DNA of 64,000 bases from Butyriboletus loyo (Eukaryota; Basidiomycota; Agaricomycetes; Boletales; Boletaceae). How positions within the stretch are numbered: position 1 is the stretch's first letter; each line of letters begins with the position of its first letter. Location: positions 124,001 through 188,000 of the forward strand of contig JBBPSI010000002.1 of NCBI GenBank assembly GCA_038093515.1. The letters run 5' to 3'. Below the pieces are notes generated by a model, which saw only the letters and a list, made by a program, of their open reading frames with translations, made no database searches and was not told the DNA's origin. This document shows positions 14,007 to 61,525 of this stretch, piece after piece. The position numbers were made by a program, and so were the translations under genes.

Positions 14007-17000
14007 CTATGAAATATCCTCATCCTTGTCCTCTAATTGCGATGGCTTCAACAAGCCAGGTACACGCATCGCAAGTTCTCGTTCAGCTTGCGCCTTCATC
14101 AGTGCCTCAGCTTCCTTCTCCTCGAGATAGAGCTCAGCGTTATCGCCCGAAGAGAATTCTTTAAGCTGGACAAGGAAGTCACGCAACGCAAGCTTGAATC
14201 GATTGATGTCACTATGGAATTCCCCTAGTCCAGTAACGAATACTTGGACTTGAGTACTGCATCACAGCTTCGTTAGCGGAGAAACGTCACTGCCACTGGT
14301 AAGACCTACTTGTGGACATGAGGGAATGCTGTCTTGAGCAGATTTGCGCAATACTCCTTGAGGAACGACGAGTTGGACATGTTCGAGTCGGCCACCTGCG
14401 CCGGATTGAATAACGGAGACTGGATTTGATTCGTCTCGACAAGCTGGAACATCCGTGCTAGGAGCAGACTCTGAAGCTTAAAGCCACTCTTGTGGTCGGC
14501 ATCCGTAAGGACAAAGAAGATGTCCTGTAAGATGCTCAGGAAGTACTGCTGGAAGAAAGCGTTTCTAACAGCCGGCTCCGCGCTTGCAAAGTTGTTGGCT
14601 ACCTCGAGACACACTAGGCGGCTTCAGCATAGGGGCTCACAAACGAGAGCATCAACGTACAATTTAGACCCGTGTCTGCGATATCCCGCATGGTATGCTT
14701 GATGGCCCAGATGATACTGTCCATGAACAGCTTGAATTGGGTCGGTGGTATTCCGAGAAGAGCTATGACGAGGTCTTAAAGATGGCGCGGACACAAAAAC
14801 ACCGTCACGCCTACCAGGGAAGCAGTTGAGATTGATGGCTCTTAGCAACTTGAAGAAGCCAACACGATGTTCCGGAAATTCGGCGAAGTCTTGGTTTATC
14901 ATATTGAGTGTGGGTTCAAATACGGCGTCAAGGATAGCGGGAACTTGGGGTGTAAGGAGAGGCTAAAGTCACCAGAAAACTCAACGATTACCCTCTGATC
15001 ATAAAGAATAACTTACACCAAGGCGGCCAGTAATCGTTGCCATCACATTAAGAACTTCTGCGTCCCGCGCAGTAGGCACATTGCGGTTATAGTCCCCAAG
15101 AATAGCGTCCAGGAGTGGCGGCATAAAATTGGCGTTAACGGCATCTAGGTCTTCCGCCTTCTTGATGTATGTCTCCATCAGCTTCAGGATCTCCTTCTTT
15201 ACCGTCCGCAGTTGACGGATCTTGGGAGTCTTCGTCGCAATCACACCTGGTAAAAGGTATCAGCTGGGCCAGCGCAGGTGTAATGTCAACGCTGACCTTC
15301 TCGTGCAACTGTCTCGCTAATGATGCCGCTGACGGCCTTGTAGAGACCAAGCATATCCAGAAATATGCGACCAACTTGGGGCAAGTAAAAGCTACCAATG
15401 GAAGTGCACGCAGAAACATTGGTTTTCAACACGTTCGAGAGAATTTTAATGTTATCAAGGTTGCTCAACACGTCGATGTTCTGTGCAGCTTGTGCCATCA
15501 AAGAGTCCCACTTCAACAACCGAATCAGTCAACAGGCACGAGCGATGAAAGGAATACATACAGCGTTGTTAGGCAATTCCATCAACTTTGCGATCAATTT
15601 CTCTTGTTGGGGTTTGTTCGGTTGAGCAGATATCATGTAGCCGACTGCCTCATAGAATGTGTGCACCTTCCAAAAGTTCGAGTCAGTTCACGAAACACGG
15701 GGCTAAGAAACAAATATACATACTTGTTGAGGTGATAAGTCAACAGTAATTCTGTGCAACAGCCGTAAAATTTCATCGACAAACGGTTCTTGCTCCCCCG
15801 ATTGTTGCATAACGAAATGTCGACGACACTTCTGAGCGATCTTGATAAAAGTATCACAAGCCATGTCCTGAACACCTACAGGTCAATTGTTTAAAGTAAG
15901 CTTAGAAAAGTGATTGACATGTAGCACTTACCTTCGTGCGTTTCATGCATGAATTCAAACAACTTGTTGACTACAGTCTTCAAGAACTTCCAGTGAGCCT
16001 TGAGGAAGCGCGGATATTGTCCGACAATATACATGATGTCTGACGCGACGACTGCTTTGTTGTCCTTCCCTCGTTTGATTTCGCATAATCCAAGCAGGTC
16101 CTTGATCACGGTCACGAGGAATCGCTTCTCAGTCTCCTCGTCTAGAATAAATTCGTTGACGCCATGTAAGACTAACACAGACGAACAATAACTCACTCAT
16201 AGCTCCGGAGATGCTACCGATTGCCCAGCAGAGTGTGTTCAAGTTCTGCCAGCTCCATTCTGAGCCATCAACTTGCTTGGCCAACTTTTCCGTCAAGATA
16301 TTTTCTGTGTCAACGACGTCTAGATGGGTGAGATACACCAAAAGTTCACGCATCTGCTTGTAAAGAACGATGGTGTCAGACTCCTTCATGAACTCCCGGA
16401 CAATTTCGCCTTCATCATTTTCAACGATGAGAACCTAGGGTCCGGTTAGAGAATATGGCTGGAGAAATAGAAGCTTCGCACTTCTTCTGGCTTGACCATC
16501 CGTTCAATGACAACGAGACGCAAGTTGCTCAAAACGTCACTATAGATGTTCTTTCGCAAAGACATCCCGTTAAGCATATTTCCAGTACCATTCCCAAGAC
16601 TCAGACCCATGAGTAAACCACTATCTCCGATGGGCAGCGCCTGGATCTCATCATAGAGCTCCGCCACAAGCTTCGACCAGTATTCAAGCGTGATCTTGAA
16701 TATTTCTCGTTCATCGACCTGTGATACTTTGACCATGTATAGATGGGCATTGAGCAATACGTCGCGATTTGCTTCGGTTTCGACGGTTCGAAGATGGTTG
16801 GATAGGAAATTACTTAGGAATAGTGCTAGGTTAAGGACGAGTTCTTGACCAGAGTCGGACGCGGATGCGTAGGCGGCGGCAATGTTGGTTGAAGGGGGGA
16901 CCATACGGTTTATGGATGTCATGACCATCGCAAACAATATCACGAATTTGGGATCATATTCTGGCCCCACGTTAAGGCCAGCAATTTCAGCCAAGCACTT

Positions 17001-46748: not shown

Positions 46749-49700
46749 TTACGGTCTGATCTTCCAGTAAACGACACTATTACCGTAACCAGCAACCGCA
46801 CACTGCTCGACCTCAACATTTTTCTTCCAGACTTTTCCTGATAAATCCCTGACCGTCGCCTCAGTGCGCCTGGCTAAGATGAACCGACCACCTTCGGGTC
46901 TCTCTAGTGTCGTGGGTACATTAAGACTCGTCCTCTTTCCAGTCCCTAGTTGGTAATCATGGTTAAAGCCCCAAGTCACAAGATCTCGGCCGGAGCCTTC
47001 TGGACCAGCGCGCAACTCAGTATCCAAAGACAACAAAATGTGACCGGCAGGTGAGACTGAGATGGCATGCGGGACAATTGGTGATAACCTCTGTTCCTGT
47101 TCGTCGACTAGACAGTGATCATCAGAACATCAACTATCAATGGCACCTGTACTCACATTTGCGCAGATCACTGATGTTCTTTACACGGATGGGGTTACCT
47201 TGAAAAGTGGAAAAGGAGCTGTTACCTAGACCCCCCCATTGACCATTACCACAGGATAAGATGTTGATATAAGTAAGTGATTCTTGGGGATTTCGTTCCA
47301 CAACAAAGCAGGTCAAGTCACCACCTACAACAGATGTTCAGACAGAATTAGACCACTCTTTGAGGTTCACTGTAGATGTGAGTAGCTACGGAAGTAATGA
47401 GTGACAGAATTTGCTAGTGGATAAATGAGATGTGAGTGAAGTGGATGGGTGAAAGTGCACAGTGCTTCCTGATGACCTACGAACCTGTGGAGTCAAGATG
47501 AGCTGTGAATTCCCCAAAAAGGTAGGAGAACAATGATGCATCGAGTGAAACTCAGATTCTCAGAAAAGTAGGAGGAGGCTACTGCTCACCCTGGTGTATG
47601 GGCTTGACCTCTGGCATGGTGTAATGAACAAACTCTTGGTGAAGGACTGGTGTGTGTTATAATCGTATCTCTTATAACAGACTTTGCATTCAGACTTCAT
47701 TATTTTTCTCTTTCAAAGGTCACGTGACTCAGTGCACGTGATCATGGGATTATACATGTGACCATAGGATGACTAAGCATATGACGTCATGGTCCAGACT
47801 GGCCCAGACTCTATGATGTCATGCCTCATGTATTTAATCTCCGTTTGCTTCTCTTCTTTTTGATCACCGTCGACTTCTATTTAATCACCGTCGACCCTGA
47901 CTTCTTCTTGTATGTACATGTATAGTAATTAGTCCCACGCACTGCTTGGTCTGTGCACATTCTCTTATAATATATAAAGGCTTGTGGTCTGGGCTAGGAT
48001 TCCCTAGCTTTAACCACTTGTCTTATTCGCTGGCAACAGTTGAGAGATTAAGGTCTGAGCTATCCTCATTACACTCACCAGTTATTGTGTATAGCTGCAA
48101 CAGTTGCAGAACCCTGTGTGCCACTTGATAACATTGTTGTCTCATAATAGTGTGGCCTGCGTGTATGGAGCCACAATCTGAGCATGCTTGCGTAGGTTAC
48201 CTTGAAATGCATTACTCCTCCAGTGACCCATGGTTTTTACTACCTCAAATGGAGTGTTGTGCAGCAGATACTTGAGTGTACCACCGATACAAATACCATG
48301 ACCTTGGAGAGGCTCCAGACCAGCCACTTTGGCTGCAGCCGCAATGCGTGCAATAAACTTTGGCTTCGTAAGAGGGCAGTACACTCCAGGGGGTTTGAAA
48401 TAGTAGGTGAAAAGGGGAGATGAAGGAGTGAGGTTGTTGACATGAAGGTGGTTGTCCAAGGCAGAGCGCGGGTCAGAAAGTCCATGTTGGTCAGCAAATG
48501 AAAGATCTTTACCCATGGGACTCATCTTAGTCTGGGGAATAGTGAATACCATCTGTTTCAGTCCATTGCAAGTATGCTCAATCTGTTACAGTTTTACCCC
48601 TAAGCATACCCTGCCACTCGTTTTCCCATGCTCACGCGTTCCCGCCGCCCCCGCCGTCTTGCAATGCTGCCCATCGCCCGCTCCCTAGTCGCCTAGTGGA
48701 CGTTATCCACTTCCCCAGTCATTCCGCAAGTCTCAGTGTCGCTACACTGAGATAGCCCCTGTCTTGTCGCCCTGTCGGGCTGGACCTTCAGTTGAGCTGT
48801 CGCGTCCTTCATTCTTTGACCAATGACATTTGTTACATCACGTGACTAGCACATGATTAGATTACGACGCGTCCTTACCTTCACGTCGAGACCCGTATCC
48901 AAGGGCTCCGCCGTTCACGTCCCCTTTGCCCTGTGGGCCGCACCTCGTGGACATCGTCACTTCGTCTTCTGCTCTTCTCATTCGCTGACGATGTCGCCAT
49001 CTTACTCGGAGCTTCGCTCCCTCATTACCGGCACTTTGCTGCTTCCCCATTTGCCGTTATGACTCACATCGACTCATAACCCCTTGCCCTCGCTGCCATG
49101 CACAGCTCGGTCTGTGCACAAGTATCTATTTGTATATATACCAGCGTACTTAGCATAGTACGGCTTCCCTAGCTAATTCTACGCATCTACCAAGTGCATA
49201 GTAATCTAGCATTATACCCATTCCTCTTGCTGATAAAGCCAATAAGAGTCTGGTTGATCTTGACAGGCATTCACCTTTCGATATCTCCTGACACTTGCTT
49301 TGCAAGACACCCAATAGTGTCGTTACGTGAGTCGGCCTGCTTTCTCATTAGGCCTGAGCCCCTATAAGTGCTCACTTGCTAGCTTGTTGTGCGCTTCAGC
49401 GTAACACAATCCGAACATCAGAGCATTTGACATGTTGCACTGGGTTGAAGGCTTGGAGAGTGGGAATGGTGAGCTCACCCAGGTGTGCAATGAAATAGAA
49501 ACCAGCAGTGAGACAACTGAACATGGAAGTGTCGAGAGGAACATTCAGGTCAAGTTGTCCATGCACAGATGTGATGAAATCAATGGTATATGGAGAACAC
49601 TTCTTCTGATGCAAGGTTGCTGGTGCGAGACAATCTGCTGCCTTGAGTAGTGTGTTGATTTCGAGATCATTGAGGGACCAAGATTGACCATGGAAAATGT

Positions 49701-52700
49701 GCCAAGCCTGAACACCTGAGATATAATTGGAGATAGTCTTTCATGAGTACAGGCCTGTGAGGTACAGTGGCTCAAAAAACTGTCCGCATGTTTGCATGTT
49801 TTACATTAAATATCACTCAACACAATAACCCCTGATCCTAACCCTAGGCAGTGGGTGTATGAAATATGGTACCCACTCTTGGCATTCTATTGGCCCAGTA
49901 ATCAGGTAATATAGATAAGGTTTGATGGAATGTCAGCTATTTTAAAATGACAGGTCATGTGGACAGTTTTTTGACTTTAAGTTTTGATCACATATATTAG
50001 ACCTTAGATGCTGTAATATCATTACATACATACATCAAGGGTCCTATTATGTCACCTTTATGTAACTGAGTGTCAGCCAACATATAAAAACCCCATCCTC
50101 CCATGTTTATTTTCTCACCATCACCATGAAATCCATTTCCACCTCTCTAAGACAAAATATTATCTCTCTCTCCTCTCTTGGCCTTTCAACTAGGAAGATT
50201 GCCTCCCAGACTGGCCTAGGGAAGTCTACTGTGGCTAGGGTACTCCAAGAGATCCAACCTGACAAGGAGAAGCTTCATGCTGGCTGTCCTTCTAAGCTTA
50301 CTCCTACCAACAAATGTGCTATTGTCCAGCAAATCATTACTGGCAAGGCCAAAAATGCAGTCCAGGCTACAAATTTCATCAATTCCATCATTGAACCTCC
50401 CATACCCTCACATACAGTGAGAAAAGACCTCAAGGAGGGTGCATTTAAAGGCTGTGATGAAGAAGAAGAAATGTCTTCTTCCAATCAGCCCTAGAAAAAG
50501 ATGATTTGCCTTTGCTCTCAAGTATCAATAAGGACTGGAAGAGGATTATTTGGTTGGATGAGACCAAAATAAATAGAATTGGGTCAGATGGACAGGAGTG
50601 TATGTGTGGAAAAAGAAGAGAGAGAGCCTAACTGCCAGAGAGGTTAAAGGTACAGTCAAGTTTGGAGCAAGTTTCCTAATGGTATAGGGTTCAATGGAGT
50701 GGGGGCTTTAAGTGAGGTTGAGGGGAGGATGGATGGTGAACAGTATGTGTAAATTCTAGAGGAAGAATTGCTATAACACATGGAGAAATCTGGAATTTCT
50801 CAACATGATATCATTTTTCAGCAGAATAATGATCCCAAACATACCTCCAAAAGAGCCCAGAATTGGTTTGAGGAGCAAGGAATCAAGCTTCTGGATTGGC
50901 CTGCACAATCTCCAGACCTCAACCCCATTGAACACACTTGGAATCACCTCAAAAGATGTCTCTCAGCTTATAATAGTGCTCCTACAGGAGTTCATCAATT
51001 ATGGGAAAGGGTGGTGGTAGAGTGGGGGAATATTTCTGTGGAACAGTGTCACAAATGGATAGAAAGCATGCCTAGAAGAGTTGAAGCAGTTATCAAGGCC
51101 AAGGGAGCTCATACCAAATACTAGATAGTTGGATTTTTGTAAAGTCAAAAAACTGTCTGCATGACCTGTCATTTTAAAATAGCTGACATTCCATCAAACC
51201 TTATCCATATTACCTGATTCCTGGGCCAATAGAAGGCCAAGAGCAGGTACCTTATTTCATACACCCACCACCTAGGGTTAGGATCAGGGGTTATTGCATT
51301 GAGTGATATTTAATGTAAAACATGCAAACATGCAGACAGTTTTTTGAGCCACTGTATGTGATGAGGTCTGAGGGGGCAGGAGCGCATTGAGACTCAGGAA
51401 TGGCCCTAGCATCACACCAGACGTGAAAGACAAGGAGACCTGACCTGTATGATTCACATGTACTAGTTGTTGCGAAGGCAACATGCAGTCGAATGCTAGC
51501 ACGTAGTACCCTGCCACAGGCGGTCCAACGACAGTTGCTGTGCTACACAAAGCACAGGCAAGATGTAATCAAGGAGCTTCAACTTAATCCTCAACTGTTG
51601 CCAGCGAATAGACAAGTGGTTAAAACTAGGGAATCCTAGTCTAACCACGAGCCTTTATATATTATACAGAGATGCGCACAGACCATGCTGTGCATGAGAT
51701 GAACTACTATACATGGCTAGACTAAAGAAGAGAAGCGCCACAGTGATTAATCACATGAGGCGTGGGGATCAAAAGGAAGAGAAGTAAACAGAGATTAAAT
51801 ACATGTGTCATGACGTCATAGAGTCTAGGCCTGGTCTGGGCCATGACATCATATGCTTAGTCAGCAGGGAATCACATGTAAGTTCCCACGATCATGTGCA
51901 CTATGTCACGTGACCTTTGAAAGTGAAGTTTGATCAAAACGATTAAGTCCGAAGTTTAAAGTGTACGAATAAATGTTATGATTATAACACTAGTTGCCCA
52001 TGCATGGATCATAACATCTTGGATGCAAGAAAACTCAACCAGAGGTGAATTGAGTGAGAGGGTGTGACAGCAGGCAGGTACCCACAAGAAAAGCCTGTCC
52101 TTGGCAGGGCAGTGTGGGTGAAGTGCAAATGAGAGGGGGGTCAAATCAGCTGGATAGGTAGGTTTGTGCTGTTTGGAAGAGCTCTTCCCCTTGTCGCTCG
52201 AGTACGTGGTTGATGAAGGCATGGAAGTGATCATCTTGGTGAGAGGACTGGGAGTGATCATCTTGGTGAGAGGACTGGGAGGATGGGTGAACCACAATGC
52301 TTGCAGCAGGAGAAAGGCTGCCAGGTTGGGACACGTCAAAGTCAGTGATGAATTCTTTGAGAGTGATGGGAATGGGAATGGGGGGGAGGAGAAGTGCAAG
52401 TGGAGGGAAGATGCCCCTGGATGGGCCGTCAGCCAGGTTGTGCTTGCTGGGAACGTACCAGGTGAGAAAGGTACACCTGTGCTGTTCAGAAATTGAATGA
52501 ACTCATTTGAAGACAGTGTTGACAGCTTTGCTCTGACTGCAGCCCTTCCACCATCCCTCAACAACTCCATGATTGTCACCAAAGAGTTTGATGCATGGGT
52601 GGCCTGGGAAGAGGAGGCCTGTATAACCTGCGAGAAATTCAAAACCGACTGCCTCAGCCCATGCGATATCACAGCTGTTACAGTTTTACCCCTAAGCATA

Positions 52701-55700
52701 CCCCGCCACTCGTTTTCCCACGCTCACGCGTCCCCGCCGCCCCCGCCATCTTGCGATGCCGCCCATCGCCCGCTCCTTAGTCGCCTAGTGGACGTTATCC
52801 ACTTCCCCGGTCGTTCTGCGAGTCTCAGTGACGCTACACTGAGATAGCCCCTGTCTCGTCGCCCCGTCGGGCCGGACCCTTCAGTTGAGCTGTCGCGTCC
52901 CTCTTTATTTGACCAATGACATTTCTTGCATCACGTGACTAGCACGTGATTAGATTACGACGCGTCCTTACCTTCACGTCGAGACCCGTATCCAAGGGCT
53001 CCGCTGTTCGCGCACCCTTCGCCCTGTGGGGCCAGCCTCATGGACATCGTCACTTCATGTTCAGCACTTCTCATTCGCTGACGATGTCGCCACCTTACCC
53101 GGAGCTTCGCTCCCTCGTTACCGGCACTTTGCCGCTTCTTCATTCGCCGCTATGACTCGGACAGACTCATAGCCCTTTGCCCTTCGCTGCCACGCACAGC
53201 TCGGTCTGTGCACGATACCCAGTAATATATATACGAGTACTTAGAGAAGTACAGACTCTTTAGCTAATTCTACGCATCTACCAAGTGCATAGTAATCTAG
53301 CATTATACCCTTCATCTGCCGATTGAGCCGATAAGTCTCTACTCGATCTCGACTGGTCGCCACCACTCGACATCTCAAGACACTTGCTCAGCAGAAGCCT
53401 GATAGCGTCGCCTACGTGAGTCGGCCATTTTCCTAAATAGGCTCGAGCCCCTAGTCAAGTGCTCGCTGCTAGTTATTGTGCGCTATCAGCGTAACAACAG
53501 CCATCTTGTTTCCAACCTGGGAGAAGTTTCCAGGCACACCACTTGCCATCGATCCACACAGCAATTTCAACACCAGAGCTAGCATCTGAGTATGCCCAGG
53601 GATTGAGGACCTCACATGGGCCAGGAATGGTTCTGATGAGGCCTGAAGAATGGAGAGTAGCTGTCCACCATCGAAGATCAGTAGCACATTCCTTGGGGGG
53701 GTAATGTGGCACGAAAGGACAAGAATCGAAGATGGGAAGCATAGCTTCGAGGGAGGTGAGGTAGGCATGGCCAGCAGGGACTGCCAGTGATGTGTGTAGC
53801 AGTTTTCCATAGATCTTCTGAACATCGTAAAGTGTGTGAGTTTTCTGCACCTCCCAGTCTGTGATTGCACAGAGGTATTTCTCCTGTTTTGACTGTGAAA
53901 GGGTGATGGATTTACAGTGGCTCAAAAAACTGTCCACATGTTTGCATTTTTTACATTAAATATCACTCAATGGAATAACCCCTGATCCTAACCCTGGGAA
54001 GTGGGTGTATGAAATATGGTACCTGCCCTCATCCTTCTATTGGCCCAGGAATGAGGTAATATGGATAAGGTTTGATGAAATGCCAGCTATTTTAAAATGA
54101 CAGGTTATGCAGACAGTTTTTTGACTTTCCAAAAATCCAACTATCTAGTATTTGGTATGAGCTCCCTTGGCCTTGATAACTGCTTCAACTCTTCTAGGCA
54201 TGCTTTCTATCCATTTGTGACACTGTTCCACAGAAATCTTCCCCCACTCTACCACCACCCTTTCCCATAATTGATGAACTCCTGTAGGAGCACTATTATA
54301 AGCTGAGAGACATCTTTTGAGGTGATTCCAAGTGTGTTCAATGGGGTTGAGGTCTGGAGATTGTGCAGGCCAATCCAGAAGCTTGATTCCTTGCTCCTCA
54401 AACCAATTCTGGGCTCTTTTGGAGGTATGTTTGGAATCATTATTCTGCTGAAAAATGATATCATGTTGAGAAATTCCAGATTTCTCCATGTGTTATAGCA
54501 ATTCTTCCTCTAGAATTTACACATACTGTTCACCATCCATCCTTCCCTCAACCTCACTTAAAGCCCCCACTCCATTGAACCCTATATGATTAGGAAACTT
54601 GCTTCAAACTTGACTATACCTTTAACCTCTCTGGCAGTTAGGCTCTCTCTCTTCTTTTTCCACACATATACTCCTGTTCATCTGACCCAATTCTATTTAT
54701 TTTGATCTCATCCAACCAAATAATCCTCTTCCAGTCCTTATTGATACTTGAGAGCAAAGGCAAATCATCTTTTTCTAGGGCTGATTGGAAGAAGACATTT
54801 CTTCTTCTTCATCACAGCCTTTAAATGCACCCTCCTTGAGGTCTTTTCTCACTGTATGTGAGGGTATGGGAGGTTCAATGATGGAATTGATGAAATTTGT
54901 AGCCTGGACTGCATTTTTGGCCTTGCCAGTAATGATTTGCTGGACAATAGCACATTTGTTGGTAGGAGTAAGCTTAGAAGGTCAGCCAGCATGAAGCTTC
55001 TCCTTGTCAGGTTGGATCTCTTGGAGTACCCTAGCCACAGTAGACTTCCCTAGGCCAGTCTGGGAGGCAATCTTCCTAGTTGAAAGGCCAAGAGAGGAGA
55101 GAGAGATAATATTTTGTCTTAGAGAGGTGGAAATGGATTTCATGGTGATGGTGAGAAAATAAACATAGGAGGATGGGGTTTATATATGTTGGCTGACACT
55201 CAGTTACATAAAGGTGACATAATAGGACCCTTTATGGATGTATGTAATGATATTACAGCATCTAGGGTCTAATATATGTGATCAAAACTTAAAGTCAAAA
55301 AACTGTCTGCATGACCTGTCATTTTAAAATAGCTGACATTCCATCAAACCTTATCCATATTACCTGATTCCTGGGCCAATAGAAGGCCAAGAGCAGGTAC
55401 CATATTTCATACACCCACTGCCTAGGGTTAGGATCAGGGGTTATTGCATTGAGTGATATTTAATGTAAAACATGCAAACATGCGGACAGTTTTTTGAGCC
55501 ACTGTATATTATTTCCATGCTTTCAGACTTCTCCTTTCAAAGGTCATGTGACTTAGTACACATGATTGTGGGATTGTACATGTGATCAGAGTCTAGACAG
55601 AGCCTATGATGTAATGGTCCAGACTGGCCCATGACATCATCAATCTAGACTATGACATCATACCTCATGTATTTAATCTCCGTTTGCTTCTCTTCTTTTT

Positions 55701-58700
55701 GATCGCCATTGGCTTCTTAGTCTAACCATGTATAGTAGTTTATCACATGCACAGCTTGGTCTGTGTGCCATCTTGTACAATATATAAAGGCTTGTGGTTT
55801 GGGCTAAGATCCCTTAGCTTTAACCACTTGTCTTGATCGCTGGAAACAGTTGAGAGACTAAGGTCTTTGCTAAACTCTATAAACCTTTGCCAGTGCTTTG
55901 TGTAGCACTGCAACTTGTAGTGAACTGCTTGTGGAATGTTCTGATAGGATTACTCCTTTGGTCATAACAGAGTTGATGGTGGAGTTGATCAATGGGATGC
56001 CATATGAAGGATGCGGAATGTGGGGTAATGATAGATTTTGTACAATTCTGTATTTACCTGGTTTCCCTGGTTTGGGAATAATGGAGAGGGGAGAGGTTTG
56101 AAACAGTCCAATGAGACTTTCCAATTCTGTGCATGTGGCTGGGCCAAGATAGTGCCCAGTTTCAAACTCACGAGACAGAATGGTTTGAAAGACATTAGTG
56201 TGCTCAAGAATGGAGGGGCTATTAGGGGGGCAGTATGAGGTAGTGATAGGTGGATTACTGCCCAGGAAACCAAATTGTAGTGACAGGTGAATATTAGGAT
56301 ATTTGGAAATAAGTTTTGTACTCATAAGAAAATTGTGCCATGTGAGGTGATTGTAAGGTGTGAGAGGCCTAAGCCTTCTCTGCTTGAGGGCAAGCCTGAG
56401 TGCTGTGGTCCATGGCTCCACAGCTGGAACATTCATAGAGATGGTCCTTTGATGTGCTGCTGCATTTGTTCTGTTGTCAGTTGAAACACACTTGAAGTCC
56501 TTGGCTGTTGACAAGACATCCTTTGCTATTGCAATGACAGTGAGTGGAGGTGTGCCTGTTCCAGAGCAGCTCACTTTTGCATTTTTGGGACATTGTGAGG
56601 GAAGTGCCCAAGGCACAAGAGGCAGGCCATACAGTGGGCAACAAAACCGTTGCAATGTTGGCAATATTTTGATTGTTAAGCTAATAACTCAAGAACCACT
56701 ACAGGAAAACCTCCTAAACCTACCCATAGCAGAAAGCCATAATCAAGGGCTTTCCAAAAATATATACATTGCTTATGTAATTCATTCTATATCAGGAGAT
56801 ATTCACCAATCAAGCAAGGGTACTCATTGCAACAGTTTTGTTGCTGACCCTATAAAATGTTAGAATCATATGTTGTGGCTGAGTATTACATAAGCAATGG
56901 GTCATGTGATGCATAAGAAGTTCAACATTGTGCAAACACATCAAAACACCATCGCTTTTTCCATTACTTCCATCATGAAATCCCTTTCTATTGAACAAAC
57001 CAACCAAATCATCTCCTGCCTGGAAATGGGTCAATCCACTTGCCAGATCTCACATTCTACTGGTCTCAACCACTCTACCATTAGTAGACTTCGCTCCAAA
57101 CACTGTCCAGACCTACTCAAAGCCTCTGGTGGTTGCCCATCCCTCATAACTCCCACTGACATGTGCCATGTCATTTGTCTTATTGGTACTGGGAAGGCTG
57201 AAAATGCTGTCCAGGTTACCAAAACTCTTCAGGACATCAAGAACCATCCCATCTCCCCCCAAACCATTCGTCATCACCTCAGGAAGGCTGGTATGAAGGC
57301 TGTGGTGAAGAAGAAATGCCCCCTTCTCTCTATGCATCATAGGAGGGCAAGAATGGACTTTGCTTTAAGCCATCAGGATTGGACTGTGGAGGACTGGAAG
57401 CATGTCATATGGTCAGATGAGACCAAAATCAATCACATTGGGTCAGATGGAAGGAAATGGGTGTGGAAAAAGGCAGAAGAGGGCCTAAGTGATAGGCTGG
57501 TGGAAGGTACAGTGAAGTTTGGAGGAGGATCAGTGATGATATGGGGTTGTATGACCTGGGAAGGAGTTGGAATGGCTTGCAAGATTGATGGTAAGATGGA
57601 TGCTAATCTTTATGTGCAGATCATGGAGGATGAACTCCAACAAACCCTTCAGTATTATGGAAAAACTCCAGAGGACATTATCTTTCAGCAGGATAATGAC
57701 CCCAAGCATACCAGCAGGAGAGCCAAGGAGTGGTTTGCTGACAATGGATTTGAGGTCATGGTGTGGCCTGCTCAGTCTCCAGACCTCAACCCCATAGAAC
57801 ACCTATGGTTTCTTCTCAAAAGAAGGCTAGCAGAGTATCCTGAGTCACCTAAGGGGGTTTTGGAGTTGTGGGAGCATGTACAGGCAGAGTGGGATAGGAT
57901 TAGTGTCAGGAGTTGATTGAGAGTATGCCTAGAAGGATTCAGGAGGTGATTAAAGCCAAAGGAGGATATACTTCATACTAATTTAGATACCCTTGATATC
58001 AGCAACAAAACTGTTGCAATGAGTACCCTTGCTTGATTGGTGAATATCTCCTGATATAGAATGAATTACATAAGCAATGTATATATTTTTGGAAAGCCCT
58101 TGATTATGGCTTTCTGCTATGGGTAGGTTTAGGAGGTTTGCCTTTAGTGGTTCTTGAGTTATTAGCTTAACAATCAAAATGTTGCCAACATTGCAACAGT
58201 TTTGTTGCCTACTGTAAGTGTGGTTGTGGCTTGAAAGGAGCGACCTTGGCATGCCCCCTGCTGTGACCGCCATGCCTGAGGGGAAGATGAGTGCTCCTTC
58301 TTCAACTGTGTCTGGGGTGATACACCACATGAAGGGGACTGAGAACAGGAGCAATGACATGATCACTGGGGATAGGCTGACCATCAAGGATGTTCCTGGG
58401 TTTGTCGCTGGACCAAAGAACTGGCATGTTCCAGCTATAGAGTGAAGATGAGAGAGACAAGGTGAATAATGAAAATTTTGATCATTATGTGTAGGAGGGG
58501 CACGTGAAAGCCACATGCAGCCATGGCAAGTGGCAAGCGAAAGAGCAAATGGTGGCAGTGGTGAGAAAACCGATAGGCAGTGGCAGTGGCATGTGGAAAA
58601 AGGAAGGGGGGGGAGGAACTGTGATGAGTGGCAAGAGGCAGTGGTGATGGTGATTGAGCCACTGTGTAGAACTGGCAGCACCAAGAAAGCAAGGCAAGCG

Positions 58701-61457
58701 CAAGGCAATGCAAAAACATCCATGAGGATGCCATTCAAAACCAACATAAAAGACATACACACCTGTTTTAGGCCCTCAGTATGTGCATTGACCCAGAATC
58801 TATCTGTGATCGCCTGAAGCAAGATGTCATTGAAAAGTGTGATGTTGAAACCTTCATCATTCACCAGTGCATCATGCCAGTTGCAACAGACTTGGGAAGC
58901 ATACCACAATAGAATCATCTCTCCATGTGGGTATGATTGGTATTCATTCATGACAATGTTCATGAAAAAGGTGGCAAGGGACCACTGATACTCCTCTGGC
59001 CAACCTGAGCACTGGATGTGAAGGAGGAAATTGTTCTTTCCCATGTTGAACTGCCGCCAGGATAGATCATGGTCATGAAGTGCTTTGGGTGAAGGTTTGC
59101 ATGATGCTGTGGATTTTAAAGAGAGAAATTGGCCCTCATCTGTGAAGGCATAGGTGCCACTTGCTGTGGATTTGTTCTCATCAGCCATGATGGCACATCC
59201 TTCAGGGGTGAAGTAGAATAGTTCAACAAACTCAAAGGACTTGAGCTTCTGCAGAGAAAACTGTGAATGATGAGGGAGGAGGGAGTCACAAATCATGCTA
59301 TCAATGTTGAAGGAGTTCATCTTAGGTTTCTTCTTCTCCTTTTTGCGCTTCTCAGCCTTGGCCTCAGCTTCCTGCTGCTCTCATTCACAATCCTCATGAT
59401 CCTGCTGATCAGCCCAAGCTGCTTCAGCTGCAAGCTCATCCTCCTCCACCTGTTGTTGCCACATAGCCAGACAACAAGTGCAGTCAAGTTGTTCAGCGGT
59501 GTTTTCATCATTGATGCCCACACTATTGGTGATGATGATGTCATGCAGTACCTGGTATGGTTGTCCTGTGAAATCAGGCTCAACTTCGAGCATAGGATCT
59601 TGGGGGGTGCAAGGCATGACTGAGGGGAACCAGTTTGGACTGCAAAGAACTGTGAATCAGTTGGAAAGGAAAGGAAAGGTGACCAGGACACTCTTAAAGG
59701 AGAAACAACAGAAAAGACTCAATGAGTGAGACAGAAAGTCAAGATGTCCTGGACACCATAGTAGAGTGCAGCAGTGGTGGTGGTGGCATGATGGCAAGAA
59801 GCAATGCCACATCTTGCTGCTCACTCAAAGACTTAACTCTAACTCTTCACTCGTGCCTCACTTCGTGATAGACTAGCAAAAGCATTCATCAGCTAACCAG
59901 CAATTACATCAAGACATCTTGATTCCGTGAAAACTGGAATATTCCTGGTCACGTCAATTTCCGTCGGGGCAATTATCGTGTCCAAATATATGTCTGATCC
60001 AAGGCCAACTTGTCTGATCGCCAGTAAGTAATGGAGGAAGCCAAAGATCAACTGTGACGTGCCCGTGTTCATTTGCACCCCAACCAAATACCCTACCCGA
60101 ACTGGTATTCACAAAGCTGCTCCGACCCCCAGCTACAACCTGGGAAACCTTGATACCCCTCAAGAACGGTATCTCAAACAAAGTATCACTAAATCTAATG
60201 TGATGATCATCAATCACATTCAGATGCTGAGTCGCAATAGTTGGAGGAGCAGACTCTCGAGGAGACAGGGATGTCTTTGCATATGGGTCCACTACTGATC
60301 GTGGAACAAGCTCGACAGTGATACGTGAACGGTCTGCGGCGTCCACTAAGCTCGAAGGTGCGGGGATTTTGTTTTTTCGCAGTCCTAGTTGTCCATGCGA
60401 GTTCGCGTCTTTGTTTACAGGGTGCACGTATGTGCATCCTTCTGACGTCAGCGCTAAAAGGTGGTTGCTACCTGCAACTATGGAGATGAAGCTAAAGAAA
60501 GCAATGAGCTACCTGAAATTTGTCGCGATAATGAGACCGACGTTTCACCCCGGTCCAGCTTCTCCTTTGGGAAGATCTCAACAAAATCTATGGTTTCTTG
60601 TTCTCGCCCAATCCAACCAGATACCCACCAAGGCGTTCTGGAAGTTGTCTGTAGTATGGATAGCTTTTGGCGTTCCTTATTTGCCGCGAAAACATAAATT
60701 CTCCCGGAGGCTGAGAGCGCGTATACACGAGACTCTGTCAGTTGTACCTTGATGATATTCTGTAAAGTACAAGCAGTGAACATGGACGCTTCGAACTTGG
60801 GGAGGCATGCTCTCTACCTTGCCACGAAGAGTCGCTTTTGGTGTCATTGTGTCTGATTTCGAGCCGAAAAACCCATCACCCCACTGAAAGACATCACCTG
60901 GAGCATCAACACACGCCGCATGCCTTTCATGGAGAGCCATATCTCGCAGCGCTACGTTCTCCAGCCACTTTGTATTAACAGGGATTTTGAACGTCTCAAT
61001 TCCAGGTGATGGTGGATCAATGAGGTTTGACCTAGCGATCAGGATAAAGGTCCAGCACAGCTACTTCGCGATGCACCTTACTTGTTAGAACCCCAAACCA
61101 CTGCACAGAGGGCTCCGTCCTCATCTAATCCAGTGCTGTTGACGCGCTTTGAATGCGCGGAACTGACTTGGGAGGGCAGAATATGCACTGCATCATTATA
61201 GACAAGGTTGCTTGAAAGGTACCACAAGAATACAACGGTGGTGGTGGCAACCATTGCTGCAGAGCGCCGTGGCGTCAAGCATGGTATTCTGGTCGAGGTG
61301 CTGGCATGAGCGGCACCAGAGTAAAGTCGGTGTGGCCTTCGGGAAGACGTGACGAGTGCATTAGTGGGGAGACTCGCAATTACTCCGAGTCAAACCTTGG
61401 CCACGACCGGTAACCTCCCAGCTGGGGGTCGACCGACAAAACTGTTGGAATCTCCAT
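46749..61457 (-). CDS. FMP25: FMP25-like mitochondrial RCC1-repeat protein, split by a giant intron
   Basis: Yeast Fmp25 is an inner-membrane RCC1-domain protein needed for complex III assembly. Exons upstream of the big intron lie at 61457-59898: a likely presequence, the membrane segment VVFLWYLSSNLVY, LCAVVWGSN, the blade HAACVDAPGDVFQWGDG, PWWVSGWIGREQE, NHLLALTSEG, GRVFGWGANEHGQVGLGSD and ESRCLDVIAG. Exons downstream lie at 47324-46749: GDLTCFVVERNPQ, LSCGNGQWGGLGN, LVTWGFNHDYQLGTGKR, and an end at VVYWKIRP. The junction GCTG|GTTAGC...GTTGTAG|GTGGTGAC keeps the frame and rebuilds the RCC1-type IAGGDLTCF. No frameshift or stop was found in the exons I read. The start at 61457 is uncertain. 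Whether the 12.6-kb intron is spliced is unknown. Confidence 0.82.
47655..48149 (+). mobile_element. solo LTR, family 2, copy A
   Basis: 495 bp, starts TGTTATAATC and ends ATAATA (probably AACA originally), flanked by 5-bp duplications GTGTG (47650-47654 and 48150-48154). Inside are CACGTG-type boxes (near 47721 and 47737), a perfect CRE TGACGTCA (47782-47789) and a TATA box (TATATAAAGG near 47972). Inserted in the 3' part of the recombinase gene. No internal retroelement sequence, hence a solo LTR. Confidence 0.8.
48584..49406 (+). mobile_element. solo LTR, family 1, copy D
   Basis: 823 bp, begins TGTTAC and ends GTAACA (inverted terminal hexamer), with perfect CAATC duplications at 48579-48583 and 49407-49411. 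Highly similar to copy E at 52676-53496. Differences are often TG or CA here where E has CG, suggesting more CpG decay in this copy. Interrupts the recombinase gene. Confidence 0.9.
49765..51354 (+). mobile_element. Tc1-like DNA transposon, copy 1
   Basis: 1,590 bp flanked by TA (49763-49764 and 51355-51356). Terminal inverted repeats of about 215 bp: 49765-49979 and 51140-51354, starting CAGTGGCTCAAAAAACTGTC. Each TIR also ends internally with an inverted copy of the same site (GACAGTTTTTTGACT). The transposase gene is broken. Nearly identical to copy 2, in opposite orientation. Confidence 0.93.
50126..51124 (+). pseudogene. Tc1-family transposase, inactive (copy 1)
   Basis: Starts MKSISTSLRQN with an HTH part (LSTRKIASQTGLGKSTVARV). 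The frame breaks near 50494 and several stops follow. The last part (50780-51124) has DLNPIEHTWNHLKR and MPRRVEAVIKAKG. Where active relatives, including the element at 56632, have QQDNDPKH, this copy has QQNNDPKH, so the second catalytic Asp is Asn. Both the frame breaks and the Asn are shared with copy 2. Confidence 0.88.
51468..51989 (-). mobile_element. solo LTR, family 2, copy B
   Basis: 522 bp in reverse orientation: minus strand reads TGTTATAATC (from 51989) to TTCGCAACA (51468). Flanked by CTAGT duplications at 51463-51467 and 51990-51994. Contains TGACGTCA at 51811-51818, a CACGTG box (near 51906) and a reversed TATATAAAGG-type TATA box (near 51655). Splits the N-terminal part of the recombinase; removing it joins HAWATS to TCESYRSG. 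Confidence 0.85.
52228..52281. repeat. 27-bp tandem duplication
   Basis: Two exact adjacent copies of a 27-bp unit, in frame (9 codons), in the C-terminal part of the RT-RNase H pseudogene, giving a duplicated SSHQDDH block on the minus strand. Confidence 0.8.
52676..53496 (+). mobile_element. solo LTR, family 1, copy E
   Basis: 821 bp, TGTTAC...GTAACA, with perfect ACAGC duplications at 52671-52675 and 53497-53501. Contains paired CACGTG boxes (TCACGTGACTAGCACGTGAT near 52931-52950) and a TATA-like run (near 53227). Inserted in the RNase H part of the DIRS-like element. Retains more CpG than copy D, so it may be younger. Confidence 0.9.
53915..55504 (-). mobile_element. Tc1-like DNA transposon, copy 2
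   Basis: 1,590 bp, same length as copy 1 but reversed, flanked by TA (53913-53914 and 55505-55506). TIRs 53915-54127 and 55290-55504. It sits at the start of LTR copy C, so it is younger than that LTR. Together with copy 1 it forms a 1.59-kb inverted pair separated by about 2.56 kb. Confidence 0.92.
54145..55143 (-). pseudogene. Tc1-family transposase, inactive (copy 2)
   Basis: Same 999-bp span and same lesions as copy 1, including Asn in place of the second catalytic Asp (QQNNDSKH, with an added Pro to Ser change). The N-terminal ATG is at 55143. Shared lesions mean both copies descend from one already dead parent that was moved by a transposase in trans. Confidence 0.87.
55505..55969 (+). 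mobile_element. solo LTR, family 2, copy C (incomplete start)
   Basis: About 465 bp plus a few bases left of Tc1 copy 2. Alignable to copies A and B through TTTCAAAGGTCATGTGACTTA, GTATTTAATCTCCGTTTGCT and TATATAAAGGCTTGTGG, ending GTCATAACA at 55969. The start is degenerate and no 5-bp duplication is seen; the DIRS RT middle is missing at this point. The CRE of copies A and B is mutated (GATGTAAT). Confidence 0.72.
56632..58214 (+). mobile_element. Tc1-like DNA transposon, copy 3 (second family)
   Basis: 1,583 bp flanked by TA (56630-56631 and 58215-58216). TIRs of about 216 bp: 56632-56847 and 57999-58214, outer end CAGTGGGCAACAAAACCGTT, inner end an inverted copy of the same site (GCAACAGTTTTGTTGCTGA). 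Encodes a nearly complete DD34E transposase. Its TIR sequences differ from copies 1 and 2, so it is a separate family with the same layout. Confidence 0.93.
56975..57916 (+). CDS. Tc1-like DD34E transposase, C-terminally truncated
   Basis: MKSLSIEQTNQIISCLEMG starts the paired-type HTH (CQISHSTGLNHSTISRLRS). A second HTH lies around residues 60-105 (ITPTDMCHVICLIGTGKAEN). Catalytic residues are all present: first Asp in IWSDETKINHIG, second Asp in IIFQQDNDPKH, and Glu in DLNPIEHLWFLLKRR, with 34 residues between the last two (DD34E). A TGA at 57914-57916 cuts the protein after RISVRS. One base seems to be lost there, because the homologous end (ESMPRRIQEVIKAKG) continues in another frame to 57981. 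The missing 20-odd residues are C-terminal to the core, so activity is uncertain. An upstream in-frame ATG lies at 56897. Confidence 0.85.
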   Translation: MKSLSIEQTNQIISCLEMGQSTCQISHSTGLNHSTISRLRSKHCPDLLKASGGCPSLITPTDMCHVICLIGTGKAENAVQVTKTLQDIKNHPISPQTIRHHLRKAGMKAVVKKKCPLLSMHHRRARMDFALSHQDWTVEDWKHVIWSDETKINHIGSDGRKWVWKKAEEGLSDRLVEGTVKFGGGSVMIWGCMTWEGVGMACKIDGKMDANLYVQIMEDELQQTLQYYGKTPEDIIFQQDNDPKHTSRRAKEWFADNGFEVMVWPAQSPDLNPIEHLWFLLKRRLAEYPESPKGVLELWEHVQAEWDRISVRS

Positions 61458-61525
61458 GTAATTCGACTTACTCGCGACATGGACCCATCAGCACCGCAGA
61501 CAGTCCTCAAAGGCATCGCCGTAAC

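Follow-up and report, generated by a model that had tools for sequence, protein, structure and literature searches.

The FMP25-like gene

The window referred to here is the whole 64,000-nt stretch of the Butyriboletus loyo genome that was analysed (contig JBBPSI010000002.1, positions 124,001 to 188,000), and all positions are given within it. Its minus strand carries an FMP25-like gene that is interrupted by a dense nest of mobile elements. FMP25 has a role in the assembly of respiratory complex III. The predicted protein scored 80.5 bits against the RCC1 family of Pfam, for which the cut-off is 21.7. Its closest named relative among the matches listed is from Boletus edulis (73% over 98% of the query), and a partial JGI sequence, P0043, reaches 80% over 59% of the query. 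The name FMP25 is carried by two of the best 120 of 274 matches, those of Trametes pubescens and Hypsizygus marmoreus. The mitochondrial ribosomal protein S2 of the window matches Imleria badia, Chiua virens and B. edulis at 88% each among the named rows, and these two proteins place the fungus within the Boletaceae or close beside them.

The introns of the model were positioned by comparison with relatives. Upstream of the nest the exons run from 61372 or 61300 (the start codon is uncertain) to 61082, then 61031–60818, 60759–60542 and 60491–60063, and the exon adjoining the nest on that side, 59898–60013, which was aligned with 120 relatives, ends ATT GCT G. Beyond the nest the exon 47157–47324 starts GT GGT GAC and is followed by the last exon with its stop codon (46749–47107). 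The intron 60541–60492 (GTCGGT..TTTAG) yields ETFISIVAGSNH, which is close to the relatives, and a 41-nt intron of the first model (60512–60472) was dropped in its favor. The 49-nt intron 60014–60062 has a non-canonical GC donor (GG/GCACGT...CAG, the slash marking the splice site), accepted because it is required to yield EHGQVGLG. Apart from the intron holding the nest, intron lengths are 49, 49, 50, 50 and 58 nt, and a tentative first intron would measure 99 or 133 nt. Neither an internal stop nor a frameshift interrupts the spliced model, which encodes 561 amino acids from MVATTT, or 589 with the tentative first exon.

The beginning of the protein is less clear. The relative in Boletus reticuloceps (P0002) starts MFRNALVTSSRR, where the window has LPTNALVTSSRR, without an ATG (61372–61300, minus strand); the MFR of B. 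reticuloceps corresponds to an in-frame LPT, and the homologous codons NALVTSSRR are present in the N-terminal region. A putative first exon of 17 nt, ATGGGTCCATGTCGCGA/gtaagt (61472–61488, minus strand), is in frame with the exon starting at 61372; it would supply an ATG and be joined across a 99-nt intron with the acceptor GCGAG. It appears to suit the N-terminus better than another candidate, an exon at 61480–61434 with a 133-nt intron, which is weak because P0002 aligns at its N-terminus with the genomic frame immediately preceding 61300 (NALVTSSRR). Unless the 17-nt exon supplies a start, MVATTT is the first in-frame ATG, and the missing ATG at 61372–61300 possibly reflects either loss of the start codon or use of this upstream exon. 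The 589-residue protein, with the weaker first exon, was used for residue counts, trees and the Pfam scan; the counts of near-invariant residues and the trees start at residue 76, and the weaker exon is thus unused there.

The whole nest lies in one intron of 12,573 nt (47325–59897, minus strand, GT...AG). The donor is GCTG/GTTAGC at 59897 and the acceptor TTGTAG/GTGGTGAC at 47325, and the exons join as ATT GCT G^GT GGT GAC, which reads IAGGD and restores IAGGDLTCF. A first-pass annotation had proposed that the gene continues in frame on both sides of this interval, that the motif is rebuilt across the junction, and that about nine transposable elements are stacked between; its coordinates, join and phase proved exact, and nine elements were resolved. 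The ends are canonical, the phase is kept, and the donor and acceptor belong to one older intron. The donor GTTAGC is a poor fit to the usual consensus, and the nest itself holds 22 GTRNGT sequences and 46 branch-plus-AG combinations that resemble splice sites.

The nest and the intron it entered

The nest, resolved through repeats and copies elsewhere in the same genome, consists of one retrotransposon-like host element, five solo LTRs and three Tc1/mariner elements, with target-site duplications intact at seven of the nine insertions. The host element (47357–59884, minus strand) is in the sense orientation of FMP25, fills the intron from end to end and is broken by the eight later insertions. 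It is probably of the tyrosine-recombinase (DIRS/Ngaro) type, a class suggested by its motifs and by the repeat order B1-A2-B2 in another copy (C194:28679–29339, within locus L071, G000:C194:28060–29420); in the window the element stops after one B repeat. No target-site duplication was seen for it at the FMP25 site, a lack to be expected of a tyrosine-recombinase element. Pfam gave no match of any kind in six pieces of the element, reverse transcriptase, RNase H and tyrosine recombinase included, and a search of the PDB with its recombinase-like piece returned nothing meaningful.

All three Tc1/mariner copies have inverted repeats and flanking TA. Copy A (56630–58216, plus strand), with TA on both flanks and terminal inverted repeats of 218 nt, has an open reading frame (56894–57916) with the transposase domains DDE_3 and HTH_Tnp_Tc3_2. 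Copy B (49763–51356, plus strand) and its inverted partner, copy C (53913–55506, minus strand), form arms of 1,594 nt that are 97% complementary, with 2,556 nt between them. The family of B and C occupies at least 40 places in the genome longer than 1.2 kb. Two of the solo LTRs are of a gypsy type (TGTTAC...GTAACA) and lie on the minus strand: LTR 1 at 52676–53496, duplication GCTGT, and LTR 2 at 48584–49406, duplication GATTG. The other three belong to a second family: copy 1 (47655–48149, minus strand, duplication CACAC), copy 2 (51468–51989, plus strand and hence opposite to copy 1, duplication CTAGT) and copy 3 (55507–55969, minus strand), whose 3′ end was lost at Tc1 C and for which no duplication is visible. 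Each LTR family has at least 40 scored places in the genome.

The limits of the host element can be read from its other copies. For its upstream part, 10 of 20 other rows start within 59884–59878 and none starts earlier; pairwise matches begin at 59884 or 59879 in four copies (C79, C36, C184 and C194) and at 59855 in C30. Its downstream part ends within 47357–47354 in nine of 10 other rows, and pairwise matches stop at 47356–47357 in two copies (C194 and C30). Outside these shared ends, remnants of an ancestral intron are left. The 5′ remnant is 13 nt (59885–59897, minus strand), or at most 18 nt with an element start at 59879; the 3′ remnant, of 32 nt (47325–47356, minus strand), holds the acceptor TAG and a candidate branch point, CTAAT, which begins 27 nt before its end. 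The empty site thus consists of GTTAGCTGATGAA plus 0–5 nt, followed by the 32 nt, for a total of 45–50 nt, a size that resembles five of the six other FMP25 introns (49–58 nt). If this short intron were retained in the message, translation would stop at its second codon at all six lengths tried, so that the site was already an intron before the insertion. A partial model from Suillus americanus (P0252), joined directly to GGDLTCF and therefore using the same acceptor, suggests that an intron stood at this position before the element arrived. The element is accordingly placed, as read from these remnants, between the donor and the candidate branch point.

Age was taken as the number of substitutions private to one copy. 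Tc1 A has two in about 1.6 kb (among the 12 longest of 30 loci), Tc1 B has one and Tc1 C has 10 (29 of 30 loci, L058, which is cut by a contig end, being left out). With LTR ends set by the duplications, gypsy-type LTR 1 has eight in 673 sites and copy 1 of the second family nine in 440 sites; since the comparison rows are few (three for the gypsy type and four for the second family, two of them near-duplicates), these LTR ages may include divergence that preceded insertion. Gypsy-type LTR 2, with 97 private sites in 762, was taken to represent another subfamily and was rejected as a clock. The nest was built up over time, with Tc1 A and B as its youngest members, and the host element is older than the insertions it contains.

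Conservation, copy number and CpG content

Near-invariant residues are changed at five of 127 sites in the window protein and at six of 129 in B. edulis. Upstream of the nest the counts are 4/76 and 4/78, and downstream 1/51 and 2/51, with 121 rows counted in each case; the upstream value of four ties the maximum, which six of the 121 rows reach and none exceeds. Quick trees of 19 sequences gave distances from the Boletaceae node of 0.182 for the window, 0.196 for B. edulis and 0.059 for P0043 upstream; 0.212, 0.193 and 0.069, respectively, for residues 273–413, the part covered by P0043; and 0.128, 0.109 and 0.086 downstream. On either side of the nest the window protein is thus at most 1.2-fold faster than that of B. 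edulis. To judge by these distances, its rate resembles that of B. edulis and exceeds that of P0043.

The chance that a neutrally evolving frame of 1,770 nt would have stayed unbroken was calculated for the time since each usable insertion. The two ends of each range differ in the source of the indel rate, which is either the element in question or the Tc1 B/C family (14 indels to 182 private substitutions). Since the insertion of copy 1 of the second LTR family that chance is 0.002–0.04; this clock predicts three to six frame breaks under neutrality, and none is seen. It is 0.15–0.47 since gypsy-type LTR 1 and 0.37–0.67 since Tc1 C, values so high that the test has power on one of the three clocks only. 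A simple pseudogene was rejected on the absence of frame breaks and a rate like that of B. edulis. The GC donor of intron 60062–60014 and the missing ATG where the relative starts count against a working gene. Taken together, the open frame, conserved residues, rate and clocks nevertheless appear to favor a working gene, with room for a recent death. The first-pass annotation had noted no stop or frameshift on either flank and had weighed silencing without coding decay; the lack of stops and frameshifts is borne out, but freedom from all decay is not, in view of these same two marks.

Searches of the assembly (30.34 Mb in 420 contigs) found a single FMP25 locus. The second intact copy that the earlier annotation had named as something that would refute its reading was not found there, and a duplicated working gene elsewhere was rejected on this ground. 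Published Boletaceae genomes measure 34–69 Mb in the available text of PMC12135008, and by comparison the present assembly may be incomplete. Some of its contigs also appear to be duplicates or haplotypes of others. C193 and C28 give identical scores at the same positions (14653–15472 in both), and one LTR, with matching flanks, occurs both at C183:44760–45310 and at C362:15580–16130.

CpG observed/expected is 0.31 in the nest, 0.85 in exons 1–5 with their introns, 0.70 in exons 6–7 and 0.98 at positions 1–46748 of the window. By piece, it is 0.02–0.33 in the host element and the Tc1 copies, 0.16, 0.54 and 0.66 in the second-family LTRs, and 1.19 and 0.97 in the two LTRs of gypsy type. The host element has ratios of 0.07–0.14 in three of its other copies and of 0.86 in the distant copy on C30. 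Since those three copies are equally depleted, the loss of CpG may predate arrival at FMP25, and it is an indirect sign of methylation at this site. The suggestion that the nest may bring heterochromatin into the gene therefore has indirect support from this depletion. Five Tc1 copies that were measured (L009, L010, L039, L040 and L044) have ratios of 0.02–0.06. Among 41 full-length Tc1 loci, a set that takes in the nest's own three, a ratio of at least 0.8 occurs in both 1.5-kb flanks at no locus, in one flank at nine and in neither at 32; with partial copies included (n = 59) the numbers are 0, 13 and 46. This suggests that Tc1 copies lie mostly in transposon-rich DNA. Domain searches of the genome gave three matches for Dicer, 19 exon-level matches for Argonaute on five contigs and 10 for RNA-dependent RNA polymerase on three contigs; five matches for DNA methylase, on four contigs, were weak (≤34.5 bits).

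Probable splicing across the nest

We think it probable, on the strength of the open frame and the readable empty site, that an ordinary intron was inflated by nested insertions and is still spliced, at least to the extent that selection can maintain the protein. A spliceosomal intron of about 45–50 nt was present in the sole FMP25 gene found. The retrotransposon-like element inserted between its donor and candidate branch point, and the eight further insertions, five solo LTRs and three Tc1/mariner elements, accumulated within that element. The pre-mRNA would be transcribed through the nest, and the spliceosome would bridge 12.5 kb to pair the donor of the old intron with its branch point and acceptor. 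The prevailing view of fungi with small introns is that their splice sites are paired across the intron. The CpG-depleted nest may be methylated and quiet, which may keep its internal promoters and poly(A) sites unused, and the stem of Tc1 B and C (1,594 nt, with a loop of 2,556 nt) could take about 5.7 kb off the effective distance (49763–55506).

It is rather unlikely, yet deserving of weight, that FMP25 has instead been silenced or is dying, with transcription stopping in the nest and the frame still open because the damage is recent. The GC donor in the neighboring intron and the want of an ATG at the relative's start, with MVATTT as the first in-frame one unless the 17-nt exon is used, would suit such a history, and two of the three clocks allow an unbroken frame by chance. 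The Boletaceae offer a further pointer. In Chiua virens (P0241, JVU11DRAFT_628, on a 3.58-Mb contig) FMP25 is modeled as a C-terminal part of 164 amino acids that begins inside the exon just after the nest junction, and no Chiua- or Imleria-named row occurs among the best 120 of 274 FMP25 matches, in a search that covered proteins of 0.55–1.75 times the query length. Any of three causes would account for the short Chiua model: a long intron in the matching position, damage to the gene, or faulty annotation. Against the loss of the gene stand a rate that is nowhere more than 1.2-fold that of B. edulis, the single change among 51 near-invariant sites downstream of the nest, the three to six frame breaks that the LTR copy 1 clock predicts, and the want of a replacement copy in the assembly. 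The first-pass annotation had left efficient splicing and silencing without decay as alternatives; the B. edulis-like branch lengths and the intact frame on the oldest usable clock lean towards splicing and stop short of proof.

Two other accounts were weighed. The nest-bearing allele could be one of two, in a dikaryon or in the population, with an empty allele supplying the protein. The signs of duplicated contigs in this assembly and the youth of Tc1 A and B are in keeping with this; yet the searches turned up a single FMP25 locus without a further haplotype copy, LTR copy 1 already has its nine private substitutions, and the host element is older still, so that we regard polymorphism as quite improbable. 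Misassembly, in which unrelated ends were joined through repeats, is hardly credible. The nest is indeed built of many-copy repeats, two of them 97% alike and inverted, but each end of the host element borders one half of a single FMP25 intron, for which reason a chimeric join was rejected; target-site duplications also match inside the nest, and the window is free of N and lies on a contig of 670 kb.

A further reading concerns what the intron might do. A transcript of FMP25 would contain Tc1 C in sense and Tc1 B in antisense, and the resulting 1.6-kb hairpin, in the excised or the unspliced intron, could be cut by Dicer into siRNAs that silence the Tc1 family in its 40 or more places, while the fold would bring the splice sites about 5.7 kb nearer. 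The inverted arms and the Dicer, Argonaute and RNA-dependent RNA polymerase domains in the genome led to this suggestion of a transcription-driven source of RNAi, which we consider very doubtful. Maize offers a parallel in Mu killer, where a transposon copy in inverted form gives rise to a hairpin RNA that silences its own family. The likeness lies in inverted copies of one DNA transposon that a single transcript can cover; the Tc1 pair differs in lying inside a host-gene intron. If the reading is true, a mitochondrial housekeeping gene bears the cost of a transposon trap and also gains from it.

Transposon-inflated introns are already known from other kingdoms. In Arabidopsis, according to the available part of PMC5364540, heterochromatin in such introns together with IBM2/EDM2 prevents ectopic processing of 3′ ends. 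As with FMP25, the Arabidopsis IBM2/EDM2 introns with T-DNA or transposable elements, so far as that account goes, exceed 10 kb with their insert, and the full transcript requires read-through and splicing. The Arabidopsis insert is described there as heterochromatic and silenced; the FMP25 nest is CpG-depleted. FMP25 also differs from the case described in that its ancestral intron was of 45–50 nt and that it is a fungal gene whose other introns are tiny. The studies of IBM1 and of EDM2 at COPIA-R7 reportedly concern the same Arabidopsis kind of heterochromatic intron.

Among fungi, Yarrowia lipolytica likewise has introns far above the norm, which the available extract of the source describes as efficiently spliced (PMC2911113). 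They exceed 700–900 nt, compared with 12,573 nt in FMP25, and transposon nests are not mentioned in that extract, which notes a zipper stem proposed for large yeast introns (PMC2911113). By analogy, a stem might shorten the distance, and heterochromatin might prevent ectopic 3′-end processing, in a fungus as well. Mean intron lengths given in the accessible text for Boletaceae are 65.5 nt in B. edulis, 62.1 nt in B. reticuloceps and 227 nt in Strobilomyces alpinus (PMC12135008). No fungal intron of comparable size with nested transposable elements was found among the open-licence papers listed. The jump from about 47 to 12,573 nt, at an empty site that can still be read and in a gene of otherwise tiny introns, makes FMP25 of B. 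loyo a good test case. A distance of some 12.5 kb from donor to branch point in a conserved single-copy gene lets one ask whether a fungal spliceosome can reach that far, and the nest lets one ask whether the silencing of an insert helps or hurts the splicing of the gene that carries it.
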